Source: Verrucomicrobiota bacterium
GTDB taxonomy: Bacteria > Verrucomicrobiota > Verrucomicrobiia > Verrucomicrobiales > DEV007
Reading direction: 5' to 3'
DNA length: 64,000 bases
Assembly (NCBI GenBank): GCA_018970725.1
Contig: JAGWVU010000004.1
Span: forward strand, 62,001-126,000
The translations under genes were made by a program, and so were the position numbers. Shown here piece after piece: positions 4,688-61,801 of this stretch (within the stretch, counting starts at the first letter, position 1; each line of letters begins with the position of its first letter). A model generated the notes under the pieces. The model saw nothing but the letters and a program-made list of their open reading frames with translations, ran no database searches and was not told where the DNA came from.

Positions 4688-5209
4688 TCACGAAGCGAGA
4701 GCGCGGATCAGTTCTTCCCGTTGCCTCGGGCAACCGCCGAACGTTTCGGCCAGCAACCCGGCCGGCGGCGTTCCCACCCGAAGGATGCCCGTCCGCTCCG
4801 CCAGCTGTTTTTCAAAATGCAGGAGGGATCGCAAGTCGGCGGGACTCCGATCGAGAAAATCCAATCCACGGCGCAAAAGATCGGCAATTTCCGGGATCGG
4901 GGTCTCCCGTTCGGCCACCAATTCGACCCAGCGGACAAAGCAAGCCGCCGCCAGAGTGTTCAGGTAGGCGGCCCGGATGCCCTGCCGGGATTGCAGCACC
5001 TGCACCTCCTTCAGCGTGTGGAGATCACTGGTCCGGCTCGGCACATAGACCAGCTCCGCCTCGAAAAAGAGATCGAGCTTCCCCGCGAAGGGACTGGCCG
5101 GGCGCAGCGCCCCCTTGGCCACGGTTTTGATCAGCCCCTTCCCCTCACTGCACCAAGACACGATCAAACTGGTCTCGGTCAGAGGCAGGGTGCGGATCAA
5201 GGTCGCCAT
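4688..5209 (-). CDS. recO: DNA repair protein RecO (short form)
   Basis: The 173 residues starting MATLIRTLPLTETSLIVSWC match the N-terminal OB-fold of RecO, with the typical KG..KTVAKGA and F.G.L..F...ELVY..S patterns at about residues 23-60. The later helical part (about 95-165) ends near residue 173. RecO helps load RecA in the RecFOR pathway. Family members are usually 230-250 residues with a C-terminal Cys4 zinc site; this copy lacks that region, as do some others. The frame is open upstream to 5335, but that extension (residues rich in Arg/Asn) runs into the prfB start region and is rejected. The gene is divergent from prfB, with 105 bases between starts. Confidence 0.78.
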   Translation of the reverse strand: MATLIRTLPLTETSLIVSWCSEGKGLIKTVAKGALRPASPFAGKLDLFFEAELVYVPSRTSDLHTLKEVQVLQSRQGIRAAYLNTLAAACFVRWVELVAERETPIPEIADLLRRGLDFLDRSPADLRSLLHFEKQLAERTGILRVGTPPAGLLAETFGGCPRQREELIRALAS

Positions 5210-5314
5210 CGTCTTTTCCACCGGATACGGTCGTCTGTTGTTTGACTGCGAGGCCTTCCGCTCTATTTTGCGTTCCCCCGGAATTTCTCGGTTCCGGAAA
5301 CCTTCCACGTCATT

Positions 5315-57267: not shown

Positions 57268-58500
57268 ATGGCCAAATCAAAAATCACCGCCCTGACGTGG
57301 GAGAACCTGCCGGAAGCCGGGCTCCGGCTCCTCACCTCGTTCGGCCTTGCCGCGGCGGTGCTCGCCCTGCTCACCCTCGTCACCCTCATGGGGACCCTGA
57401 ACCAAATCGAGGAGGGACTGATCGATTCCACCGCGAAGTATTTCGAGTCCGCCTGGATCGTTGACACCATCCCGCTCGGGAAGTTCACGGTCCCGGTGTT
57501 TCTCCCCGGCGGCTACCTTCTCCTGGCGATCCTCTTCTTCAACATCCTGGCCGGCACCATCTTGAAAATCCGGCGCAATTGGAAGGCGATCGGGCTCTAT
57601 GTCTCGCACATCGGCATCCTCATCCTGATCTTCAGCTCTTTCGTCACCCGGCATTTCGCTTGGGAGGGAAACATGGCGCTGCGCCCCGGCATGCAATCGT
57701 CCGAGGCCTTGCACTACCGCAACTGGCAGATCGAGATCCTGCCGGTAGACGCCGGGGGCCAGGCGACCCAGGCTCTGGTCATCCCGCACGGGGAATTGGA
57801 ATCGATCGGTTGGAAGGGGCAACGGACCTTCACCACGCCGGACCTCCCCTTTGATCTCCGGATCACCCACGCGGCGCGCAACGCCACGCCGATTCCGGTC
57901 TCCGCGCCGATGGCGGATCGCTCTGACTCCCCGGAAGTGGACGGGTTCAAGCTCCTCCAACTGCCGAAGGAAAAAGAGGCGGAGCGCAACTCGGCCGGAT
58001 TTTGCGCCGAGTTCATTCCGAAAAACGGCGACCCCTCCATCCCGGCGATCCTCTGGGCGCACATCGGCGGCAACTTTGCCCCGGTCAAACCGTTCACCCT
58101 GCGGACCGGGGGCAAAACCTTCGCCGTTCAAGTGGTGCGCGAACGGATGGCCATCCCCTTCACCATCCGGCTCGACCAGTTCCTCTTCGAGAAATACGCG
58201 GGTGTGATGACGGCGAAGAATTACCAGAGCAACATCACCAAACTCGAGGACGGGCGGGAGGAGAAGCTCGAGGTCAAGATGAACGAACCATTCCGCCATC
58301 GGGGTTACACCTTCTTCCAAGCCAGCTTCGGTCCGCCCGATGCGGGGCCGGACGACGAGCTTTACACGGTGTTCACGGTCTGGCGGAATCCGTCGGACCA
58401 CTGGCCGCTCATTTCCCTCGTGGTGACTTTCGCCGGTCTTCTGGCCCACATGGGCTGGAAATTGGCCGAGCACCTCCGCCGTTCCACCCGCACCGCCTGA
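57268..58500 (+). CDS. resB: Cytochrome c biogenesis protein ResB-like
   Basis: 410 residues with hydrophobic helices at about 17-38, 71-97, 108-128 and near the C-terminus (about 372-395). The large periplasmic region (about 130-365) contains FRHRGYTFFQASFGPPD, typical of ResB/Ccs1. ResB and CcsA together transfer haem to apocytochromes in System II. The N-terminal RLLTSFGLAAAVLALLTLVTLMGTLNQ is a clear ResB start. It ends 7 bases before ccsA; this is a divergent, short variant of the family (Bacillus ResB is about 540 residues). Confidence 0.87.
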   Translation: MAKSKITALTWENLPEAGLRLLTSFGLAAAVLALLTLVTLMGTLNQIEEGLIDSTAKYFESAWIVDTIPLGKFTVPVFLPGGYLLLAILFFNILAGTILKIRRNWKAIGLYVSHIGILILIFSSFVTRHFAWEGNMALRPGMQSSEALHYRNWQIEILPVDAGGQATQALVIPHGELESIGWKGQRTFTTPDLPFDLRITHAARNATPIPVSAPMADRSDSPEVDGFKLLQLPKEKEAERNSAGFCAEFIPKNGDPSIPAILWAHIGGNFAPVKPFTLRTGGKTFAVQVVRERMAIPFTIRLDQFLFEKYAGVMTAKNYQSNITKLEDGREEKLEVKMNEPFRHRGYTFFQASFGPPDAGPDDELYTVFTVWRNPSDHWPLISLVVTFAGLLAHMGWKLAEHLRRSTRTA

Positions 58501-58507
58501 GCTTACC

Positions 58508-60445
58508 ATGAACCGATTCTCCATCGTCCCCCTGCTGGTTGCGCTTTGTGGCATCGCCAACGCGGACTACAAACCATGGCCCGAACAGGCCGTCACTTCC
58601 TTTTCCAGAATCCCGGTCCTCTCGGAGGGGCGCGTCAAGCCGCTGCAGACCGTGGCCTATTACGCGCTGCTGGAATTACAAGGCCGCACCTCCCTGAAAA
58701 CAAAAATCGACGGCCGGAACGTCAAGCTGAGCGCTTCCGAATGGCTCATGGACGCCATCTTCCGCCCGGAATTCTCCAAGGACTACCCCGTCTTCCTCGT
58801 GGATGACACCGCGGCGGTCCGTTCGATCGGCATCGACCAGAGCGGCAAGCGCAAGCGGGATCGCTTCACTTACAACGAGCTGCTTCCGGGCCGTTCCCAA
58901 CTGGCGAACCTCGCGGCTTCCTTCGCCCAAAAAAAGGGCCGTGAGGAGAAGCTCACGTCCTTGGAGGAGCAGGTCTTGATTCTGGGCGGCAAGGTCAACG
59001 ATTACGAAATGCTGGTCGCCGGAATCGCCCCGGCCCAACCCTCCCGGTTGATCAACACCTCCATGCTTCCTCCAGACATGTCGGAGCTCGCCTCCCGCAT
59101 GAAACTTGGCGAGTTCCTCGGGATGGCCCCCAAACTTCCGGTGGAGGCGATCGAGGCCATGATGCAACGGGACCGGAACCAAATGACGGAGGACGAGCGC
59201 CAGGTGCTCACCGCGATGATGCTGGTCTACTTCTTCCACAAGACCGGGACCGCACTCACCCTGTTCCCTCCGCCGGACCCGTCCCGCGCCGAATGGATGT
59301 CGCTCGGCGAAATGATCGGCAACGCGATCGGCAGGGAGAAGACGGAGCGCACCTGGGAACTGGAACGTCTCGCGCTCGTGGAAAAGGTGGCCGGGAGCAC
59401 GGGAGACCCGGCGGCTTTTTCCAATGCCATGGAAGCCCTGCGGGCCCGGATCCAGGCGGATGCCGCCGCGCGCAGGGAGGCCGGACAGATCGACACCGAG
59501 ATCAAGCTCTACAATGGAAAGTATCTCGATAACGCCAAGGTGTTCTTCATCGCCGCCTTCTTCTTCGTGGTGCTGATGTGGCTCGGGCCGATGTCCACTC
59601 CCGGCAAGGTGTTCACCGCGCTGGCGATCTGGTCAGGGATCGCCGGTTTCCTCAGCCTGGTCGCCGGCATGTTGCTGCGCAGCCAGATCCGCGGCTGGGC
59701 GCCGATCACCAACCTCTACGAGACCTTCCTCTTCATCAGTGCGTCCGCCTTCGTCTTCGGCCTCTTGTTCGAGCGGTCCAACCGGCAGCGGATCGCCCTC
59801 TCGGCCGGCATCTTCGTCCCCACCCTCTGCCTCATCCTTTCCGGACAATTCCTCCTCATTTCCCCCGAGGACACCCTGCCTCCGCTGGTGGCGGTGCTCC
59901 GGAGCAATTTCTGGCTCACGACCCATGTCATCACGGTGACCCTGGGATATTCCGCCGGACTGCTGGCCGCCGTGATCGCCTCCATCTGGATTGTGGCCCG
60001 TTTTTTCCGGATCGCCGAAAACCGGCGCGACGTCTACCGGGACGCCACCAAGATGACCTATGGCATCATCCTGTTCTCCCTGCTTTTTTCCCTTGTGGGC
60101 ACCGTGCTCGGGGGAATCTGGGCGAACTACAGCTGGGGCCGTTTCTGGGGATGGGACCCCAAGGAAAACGGCGCGCTCATGATCGTGCTGTGGACCTTGG
60201 TGATCCTCCATGCCCGTCTTGGAGGCTACATCCGCGACATCGGGCTCCACGTCATGGCGGTGATCCAAGGCATCATCATCTCGTTCTCCTGGTTCGGGGT
60301 GAATGCGATGGGTGTCGGTCTCCACAGCTACGGATTCATCGCCGGCATCTGGACAGCGCTGGGGATCGCCTGGGGAGTCATGGCCCTGATCATCGGCATG
60401 GCCACCCGGCTCAAACTCCGCGAGATGCCCCCTGCTGCAGCCTGA
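58508..60445 (+). CDS. ccsA: Cytochrome c biogenesis protein CcsA with N-terminal extension
   Basis: 645 residues. An exported segment comes first (Sec signal about 1-19, then a soluble part of about 320 residues). The CcsA/ResC membrane domain follows (about 340-640). The haem-binding WWD motif is visible as WGRFWGWDPKENGALMIVLW (about 544-563); conserved His residues lie in TTHVITVTLGY (about 474-484) and LHSYGF (about 606-611). It shuttles haem to the periplasm and attaches it to CxxCH proteins with ResB. Typical CcsA has 300-350 residues; the extension resembles the fused form used in Bacteroidetes and Verrucomicrobia, where the ResB-like part is partly joined. Confidence 0.9.
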   Translation: MNRFSIVPLLVALCGIANADYKPWPEQAVTSFSRIPVLSEGRVKPLQTVAYYALLELQGRTSLKTKIDGRNVKLSASEWLMDAIFRPEFSKDYPVFLVDDTAAVRSIGIDQSGKRKRDRFTYNELLPGRSQLANLAASFAQKKGREEKLTSLEEQVLILGGKVNDYEMLVAGIAPAQPSRLINTSMLPPDMSELASRMKLGEFLGMAPKLPVEAIEAMMQRDRNQMTEDERQVLTAMMLVYFFHKTGTALTLFPPPDPSRAEWMSLGEMIGNAIGREKTERTWELERLALVEKVAGSTGDPAAFSNAMEALRARIQADAAARREAGQIDTEIKLYNGKYLDNAKVFFIAAFFFVVLMWLGPMSTPGKVFTALAIWSGIAGFLSLVAGMLLRSQIRGWAPITNLYETFLFISASAFVFGLLFERSNRQRIALSAGIFVPTLCLILSGQFLLISPEDTLPPLVAVLRSNFWLTTHVITVTLGYSAGLLAAVIASIWIVARFFRIAENRRDVYRDATKMTYGIILFSLLFSLVGTVLGGIWANYSWGRFWGWDPKENGALMIVLWTLVILHARLGGYIRDIGLHVMAVIQGIIISFSWFGVNAMGVGLHSYGFIAGIWTALGIAWGVMALIIGMATRLKLREMPPAAA

Positions 60446-60454
60446 TCAACCGCC

Positions 60455-60697
60455 ATGCCCAAGTGCGACGTCAGCCGGATCCACGGCAAAATCCAATTCG
60501 TCACCTCGTTCCCCGACTACAAGGTGGAAGTGGTCTCCTCCTTCCCGGACCTCAAGGTGCAACTGGTGAACGCCTTTCCGGACAGTCCCGGAAAATGGCA
60601 GATCGTGGACTCGTTTCCCGACTTCAAGATCCAGATCGTCACCGCGTTTCCCGATTTTAAGATCCAATATGTGACCGCCTTCCCCGGCCCGGCGTAA
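60455..60697 (+). CDS. 80-residue protein of six 11-residue FPD repeats
   Basis: After an 11-residue lead (MPKCDVSRIHG) the whole chain is a repeat: units begin at residues 12, 23, 34, 47, 58 and 69. The consensus is K-(I/V/W)-Q-x-V-x-(S/A)-F-P-D-aromatic. Unit 3 carries a two-residue insertion (SPG end), and the last unit ends FPGPA. No signal peptide or membrane helix exists. The alternation of hydrophobic and polar residues indicates short beta-strands stacking with Phe-Pro turns. From memory, very similar small FPD-repeat proteins occur in several phyla without known function. They may relate to the knotted septoil-knot (DUF6150-like) family, which I could not check. It starts 9 bases after ccsA. 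Confidence 0.75.
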   Translation: MPKCDVSRIHGKIQFVTSFPDYKVEVVSSFPDLKVQLVNAFPDSPGKWQIVDSFPDFKIQIVTAFPDFKIQYVTAFPGPA

Positions 60698-60739: not shown

Positions 60740-61801
60740 TTGGAAACAAGCTCCCAACAGTTCGCCAGTGACAACTACGCCGGGATCTGCCCGGAGGCTT
60801 GGGCCGCTTTGGAATCGGCCCGCCACGGTCACGCCCCCGCCTACGGTGACGACCCTTGGACCGCCCGCGCCAGTGATCTCCTGCGGGAAATCTTCGAGAC
60901 CGACTGCGAGGTCTTTTTCACCTTCAACGGCACGGCCGCCAACTCCCTGGCCCTGGCCTCGCTCTGCCAGTCCTACCACAGCATCCTCTGCAGCCAGGTC
61001 GCGCACGTCGAGACCGACGAATGTGGCGCCCCCGAATTTTTCTCCAACGGCACAAAGATCCTCCTTTTGCCGACCGATGGGGGCAAGATCCGGGCCGGGT
61101 CGATCGGGGAGACGGTCTCGCGCCGTCAGGACCTTCACTTTCCCAAGCCGCGCGCGATCAGCCTCACGCAGGCCACCGAAACTGGCACCATCTACCAGCC
61201 CGCGGAACTGGGGACCATCGCAGAGGCGGCGCGACGTTACGGCCTCAGCGTCCACATGGACGGTGCGCGCTTTGCCAATGCCGCGGCCTCGCTGGGCCGG
61301 GCGCCCCGGGAGTTCACTTGGGAGGCCGGAGTGGATGTCCTCTGTTTCGGCGGCACCAAGATGGGGCTTCCGGTGGGCGAAGCCGTCGTCTTCTTCCGCA
61401 AGGCGTTGGCCGCGGAATTCGCCTACCGCTGCAAACAGGCCGGGCAACTCGCTTCCAAGATGCGGTTCCTCGCCGCCCCGTGGGTCGGCATGCTGGAGAA
61501 CGGCGCCTGGCTCCGGCACGCCGCTCATGCCAACGCAATGGCGGAACGCCTTTTCCAAGGCCTCTCCACCCTGCCCGCCATCCGCGTGGTCTATCCCCGG
61601 CAGGCCAATTCCGTCTTCCTCGACCTCTCTCCGGATGTCGCCACGGCCCTTCGCGGGCTCGGTTGGAGATTCTACAATTTCATCGGGGACTCGGGATGCC
61701 GGTTCATGTGCGCTTGGGATACGGAGCCCGCCACCGTCGACCGATTGCTCGCGGATTTCCACCGGGTAACCGCCGCGGCCCCTCCGGCGTCCTCCCATTA
61801 G
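60740..61801 (+). CDS. ltaE: Low-specificity L-threonine aldolase/beta-eliminating lyase
   Basis: 353 residues of the fold-type I PLP family: FASDNYAGICPEAW (about residues 8-21), FFTFNGTAANSLALASL (about 59-75), VHMDGARFANAAASLG (about 170-185, Asp-Ala-Arg region), the PLP-lysine in CFGGTKMGLPVGEAVVFF (about 203-220) and a C-terminal domain. It should cleave L-threonine or allo-threonine to glycine and acetaldehyde. No in-frame ATG exists near the N-terminus. The best start is TTG 60740, though GGAGG (60734-60738) sits only 1 base before it and is too close for a normal ribosome site. Confidence 0.88.
   Translation: METSSQQFASDNYAGICPEAWAALESARHGHAPAYGDDPWTARASDLLREIFETDCEVFFTFNGTAANSLALASLCQSYHSILCSQVAHVETDECGAPEFFSNGTKILLLPTDGGKIRAGSIGETVSRRQDLHFPKPRAISLTQATETGTIYQPAELGTIAEAARRYGLSVHMDGARFANAAASLGRAPREFTWEAGVDVLCFGGTKMGLPVGEAVVFFRKALAAEFAYRCKQAGQLASKMRFLAAPWVGMLENGAWLRHAAHANAMAERLFQGLSTLPAIRVVYPRQANSVFLDLSPDVATALRGLGWRFYNFIGDSGCRFMCAWDTEPATVDRLLADFHRVTAAAPPASSH

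Follow-up and report, generated by a model that had tools for sequence, protein, structure and literature searches.

A protein of six 11-residue units encoded behind ccsA in a Verrucomicrobiota bacterium is a further member of the fold family of the 7_1-knotted protein Q9PR55

Q9PR55, a protein of 89 residues from Ureaplasma, was predicted by Brems et al. (2022, PMC9278004) to form a 7_1 knot, and no protein is known to be knotted in a more complex way. According to another report (PMC13352647), this knot was confirmed by X-ray crystallography. Brems et al. (PMC9278004) also predicted a 5_1 knot for P73136 of Synechocystis, a probable homologue of Q9PR55 with 48% identity. Thus, the most complex protein knot has so far been described for one Ureaplasma protein and, by prediction, one cyanobacterial homologue. 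In the literature accessible to our analysis, no description of the breadth of this family, of the export of its members or of their carriage by phages was found. Here, we report on an open reading frame (ORF) in a stretch of 64,000 nucleotides from a Verrucomicrobiota bacterium (referred to as the window), whose product is a further member of the fold family represented by the solved structure of Q9PR55.

The open reading frame and its repeat units

The ORF is located directly behind ccsA and encodes a protein of 80 residues (MPKCDVSRIHGKIQFVTSFPDYKVEVVSSFPDLKVQLVNAFPDSPGKWQIVDSFPDFKIQIVTAFPDFKIQYVTAFPGPA) composed of six 11-residue units (Table 1). The periodicity of the product is pronounced, since at a lag of 11 residues 29 of 69 positions are identical, compared to 16 or fewer in 20,000 shuffled sequences. 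A preliminary description of this DNA had assigned 69 of the 80 residues to six repeats. The number of units was confirmed, but a recount yielded 66 repeat residues plus a two-residue break, whose position behind unit 3 and whose uniqueness had been recognized correctly. The unit start given there, lysine followed by a hydrophobic residue and glutamine, is usual but not strict, as illustrated by YKVEVV and GKWQIV.

Comparison with two species of the same genus gave a dN of approximately 0.09, a dS of 1.3 to 1.6 and a pN/pS ratio of 0.13 to 0.14. As the substitutions are mostly silent, the ORF is translated and constrained; it is a real gene under strong purifying selection. Codon statistics, which had been named as a possible argument against translation, hence support coding. 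The frame upstream of the ATG is closed at three codons, so no signal peptide is hidden before the start codon. The search for an intrinsic terminator 3' of the ORF was negative.

Table 1. Positions of the ORF, its repeat units, the adjacent genes and related genes on viral contigs and a plasmid
Feature	Position	Strand	Remarks
Knot-family protein ORF	60455..60697	+	80 aa plus stop, ATG start; based on homology, model and constraint
Unit 1 GKIQFVTSFPD	60485..60517	+	residues 11-21; predicted strand 11-15
Unit 2 YKVEVVSSFPD	60518..60550	+	residues 22-32; predicted strand 22-26
Unit 3 LKVQLVNAFPD	60551..60583	+	residues 33-43; predicted strand 33-37
Two-residue break Ser-Pro	60584..60589	+	residues 44-45; residue 45 is where the sister subgroup has its loop Cys
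Unit 4 GKWQIVDSFPD	60590..60622	+	residues 46-56; predicted strand 47-50; all 152 homologues have Trp48
Unit 5 FKIQIVTAFPD	60623..60655	+	residues 57-67; predicted strand 57-61
Unit 6 FKIQYVTAFPG	60656..60688	+	residues 68-78; predicted strand 68-72
ccsA	58508..60445	+	directly upstream of the ORF; cytochrome c assembly domain at residues 401-606
resB-like gene	57268..58500	+	upstream of ccsA
Beta-eliminating lyase/threonine-aldolase type gene	60740..61801	+	downstream of the ORF; TTG start assumed
Knot-family genes beside phrog_5233	L101, L102, L195: about 4970-5210; L194: 3035-3268		antisense to the hub gene
Leptospira weilii plasmid copy	L196: 4911-5225		in sense in the tail operon, between phrog_5564 (120 aa) and baseplate J

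Relationship to Q9PR55 and the predicted fold

A phmmer search against the sequences of all solved structures identified the Ureaplasma protein UU089.1/Q9PR55 with an E value of 1.5e-12. With a profile of 84 homologues, the match to Q9PR55 improved to 7.9e-21, and no other chain in the PDB sequences scored below E 1. It is practically certain that the window protein belongs to the Q9PR55 family. A relative encoded on a viral contig (L179) can be aligned with Q9PR55 from the motif GYGK at residue 11 through the last strand, and this motif corresponds to RIHGK, with which unit 1 of the window protein opens. Based on this alignment, we read Q9PR55 as a protein that probably comprises six units, too.

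Using 96 homologues, AlphaFold2 returned a model with six strands, a pLDDT of 89.9 and a pTM of 0.73, while 13 close homologues sufficed for a pLDDT of just 37.5. A Foldseek search with the model detected four chains of Q9PR55 (E 1.2e-6) and nothing else below E 4.6. Similarly, VIA-align matched the model to 8iwb_F (Z 8.1, 2.5 A, 67 residues) and 8iwa_A (Z 8.0, 3.1 A, 69 residues), and no PDB entry besides the Q9PR55 structures reached Z 2 or more. A fold search among viral models gave no match. The register proposed by Foldseek superposes on 8iwa at 10 A, whereas an alternative register (1-79 on 11-84) gives 2.5 to 3.3 A. The latter agrees with the six-unit correspondence to Q9PR55; its TM score of about 0.6 on 8iwa is modest in view of approximately 42% identity. 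In the model, the six-unit beta fold superposes on 8iwa and 8iwb, which supports the defined beta fold anticipated from the repeats.

Relatives with a solved structure are solely the 7_1-knot entries 8iwa, 8iwb and 8jrm. Due to this relationship and the model, a knotted fold of the window protein is well supported, and the initial suggestion of a knot was right in kind. It is very probable that the window copy itself contains a knot, considering both homology and the confident model. As a reservation about the model, AlphaFold permits chains passing through each other (PMC10672856). The knot may be of the 7_1 type or of the 5_1 type as predicted for P73136, since this prediction implies that the type may vary within the family.

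The strict period of 11 residues with one strand per unit would also be compatible with a small, unknotted beta-solenoid, which had been considered as well. However, the copy number of solenoid repeats usually changes, while the number of units is fixed across 152 homologues: insertions are absent from 151 of these distinct sequences and deletions from 148, and the latter comprise at most two residues. This constancy argues for a closed fold rather than for a solenoid. As the fold matches are restricted to the knotted Q9PR55 structures, a solenoid is most improbable.

Database comparisons provided few further clues. Scans with Pfam, NCBIfam and PADLOC yielded nothing above the cut-offs. A weak local similarity to PF22372 (BA_2335-like; E 0.0016 for the window protein, at best 1.1e-4 within the family) is confined to residues 52-74 and lies below the curated cut-off (18.8 versus 27 bits). 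DUF6150 (PF19647), named in the preliminary description as a knotted family for comparison, was not matched by this protein in hmmscan at E values up to 1, nor was it matched anywhere in the whole genome. The PHROG family phrog_6462 matches residues 8-78 with an E value of 2.4e-24 and was matched by all 96 aligned family members. Its function is listed as unknown, and the library records neither a function nor a structure.

Distribution and variation of the family

A pattern scan of species genomes detected 337 stretches encoding relatives, 80 of which were retrieved. Judging from their record titles, the relatives come from Pseudomonadota (many in Pseudomonas, others in Photorhabdus and Cedecea), Verrucomicrobiota, Planctomycetota, Spirochaetota and Bacteroidota, and also in Campylobacterota, Myxococcota, Chlorobiota, Vulcanimicrobiota and Lentisphaerota, about ten phyla altogether, though groups represented by a single genome are metagenome bins that may be misbinned. 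With such distant homologues and a confident model, the reservations expressed beforehand about a lineage-restricted sequence of uncertain structure do not apply. Carriage is scattered and amounts to roughly 1.5-10% of the sampled genomes: in five phylum samples, family members occurred in 8 of 288 (the phylum of the window), 6 of 398, 6 of 294, 10 of 296 and 29 of 296 genomes. The value of approximately 10% belongs to the phylum of a Spirochaetes record (L066). One genome (G198) harbors three family members of differing types, and four sequences (L110, L140, L149, L177) are truncated or stop-containing fragments, possibly pseudogenes.

In the alignment, more than 150 distinct natural variants are 26-85% identical to the window protein. 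Nearly invariant among 152 homologues are Gly, Val, Trp and Asp positions of the repeat frame, which do not form a catalytic-looking set. In a family tree, for which the 80 alignment columns are too few, the phylum label changes 21 times compared to a minimum of nine. Good support was obtained for only four of the 77 inner branches, so that the tree demonstrates neither transfer nor vertical descent.

The preliminary description had stated that a signal and a membrane helix are absent. This holds for the window copy but not for the family, as a crude rule assigned a hydrophobic, export-type N-terminus to 128 of 154 distinct members, some of which have a lipobox-like cysteine. The export-type N-terminus is missing in the genus of the window and in some members from Spirochaetota, Bacteroidota and Chlorobiota. 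A sister subgroup (L133-L175, e.g. L150:1480-1719) possesses a cysteine before the loop glycine and a second one at the N-terminus. Both occur together in 43 of the 47 sequences with a loop cysteine (Fisher p about 3e-21, a value that ignores the relatedness of the sequences), which suggests a disulfide bond in this subgroup. The window protein has kept the N-terminal cysteine (C4) and has a proline in the loop. Another, divergent subgroup (L012, L111, L112, L178, L186, L192, L194, L195) shows xGED in place of SFPD, e.g. VDLGEDLRVRVV.

Gene neighbourhoods and the possible role of the protein

The gap of nine bases described for the ccsA locus is correct, as ccsA extends to 60445 and the start codon of the ORF begins at 60455. 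Judging from this short distance, the ORF is probably located on one transcript with ccsA. The encoded CcsA protein comprises 645 amino acids, with a long N-terminal part preceding the cytochrome c assembly domain. Three genomes of the window's genus share the gene order resB, ccsA, knot-family gene, lyase/aldolase and cyclase. Hence, linkage to ccsA recurs in the three sampled species of this genus, but at 27 ccsA loci from elsewhere in this bacterial family, ccsA is followed by neither a knot-family gene nor the aldolase gene. The close spacing and the order preserved within the genus might indicate an accessory protein of cytochrome c biogenesis (System II) working with CcsA and ResB. Haem ligation in cytochrome c biogenesis takes place in the periplasm, though, whereas the window copy is cytoplasmic by its sequence and contains neither a CxxC nor a haem motif. 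Together with the ccsA loci devoid of the gene and the position of relatives in other lineages away from ccsA, this makes such a function very improbable. A neighbourhood common to different phyla was not found. The neighbours are lineage-specific, e.g. FecCD and urea-type ABC transporters in Pseudomonas, or a DeoC/LacD-type aldolase, a radical SAM protein and an HHH-motif gene in Verrucomicrobiales. In Pseudomonas protegens, the gene is adjacent to urtA and its product bears a signal.

Some relatives reside on viral contigs. In four of them (L101, L102, L194, L195), the knot-family gene lies antisense beside the baseplate hub gene phrog_5233, and in three of the four its other flank is occupied by a further hub gene, phrog_4930. 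The flank of phrog_5233 thus looks like a favored position for accessory genes. In other viral contigs, the neighbours of the knot-family gene are a P2-type tail gene on one side and a regulator on the other (L098), lysis genes (L096) or a minor tail gene (L097), and in L094 the terminase gene is close by. In several viral contigs, it forms a single unit antisense to the flanking late genes, which is not the case in the window. This gene context suggests an accessory gene that benefits the lysogen, possibly at the envelope.

It is conceivable that the family consists of 'morons' spread by prophages, which protect the lysogen or the host envelope, for instance by superinfection exclusion, and that the window copy is a domesticated, signal-less descendant. 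The solitary antisense position among late genes, the export signal of most members, the lipobox-like cysteine of some and the patchy distribution are in line with this idea. It is also favored by the general knowledge that some lipoproteins encoded by prophages keep other phages out (PMC3952083). On the other hand, no PADLOC match was obtained, no family match was found in 50,697 records of isolated phages (nor in E. coli genomes), most of the retrieved chromosomal copies have ordinary neighbours, and the window copy lacks both a signal and adjoining phage genes. Moreover, the plasmid copy of Leptospira weilii is encoded in sense inside a tail operon. Overall, this reading is unlikely. Quite unlikely, too, is the wider notion that the 7_1-knot family as a whole represents a widespread, phage-carried and mostly exported envelope guard, e.g. 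against other phages, whose knot would resist unfolding and proteolysis at this site.

The Leptospira copy, which directly precedes baseplate J, and the four contigs with the gene beside a baseplate hub gene might point to a structural part of the virion, a baseplate or spike component, recruited by bacteria. However, in these four contigs the gene and the hub genes are located on opposite strands, export signals are present in most members, and in bacteria the gene is single, patchy and without adjoining tail genes. An origin as a virion part is very unlikely.

We favor the interpretation that the product of the ORF is a small, soluble member of the Q9PR55/UU089.1 family. Its six 11-residue units would each form a short beta strand plus a turn of the SFPD type, with the chain winding into a compact torus-type knot, as determined by crystallography for Q9PR55 and expected for the window copy from homology and the model. 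This very stable scaffold may present its conserved turns to a partner, thus acting as a binding or inhibitor module rather than as an enzyme, a role for which we see about even chances. Most relatives would be exported, and the paired cysteines of the sister subgroup fit an exported, locked and stable fold. The window copy, having no signal, would stay in the cytoplasm. For fold-family membership and this functional outline jointly, we estimate a probability of roughly 0.55. With more than 150 variants from about ten phyla, some of which have an export signal or a probable disulfide bond while others lack them, the folding of the knot, possible changes of its type and the reason for its retention become addressable in common laboratory bacteria, for example in Pseudomonas protegens.

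Like UU089.1/Q9PR55 (PDB 8iwa, 8iwb, 8iwc, 8jrm, 8w68), the window protein is built of 11-residue SFPD units, six in number, and in both proteins unit 1 opens with GK. According to the model, they share a common fold over 67-69 residues. The window protein is shorter (80 versus 89 residues), and its extra loop residues are located behind unit 3, whereas those of Q9PR55 follow unit 4 in the register of the L179 alignment. P73136, compared by its published description, differs from the window protein in its length of 112 amino acids and its predicted 5_1 knot.
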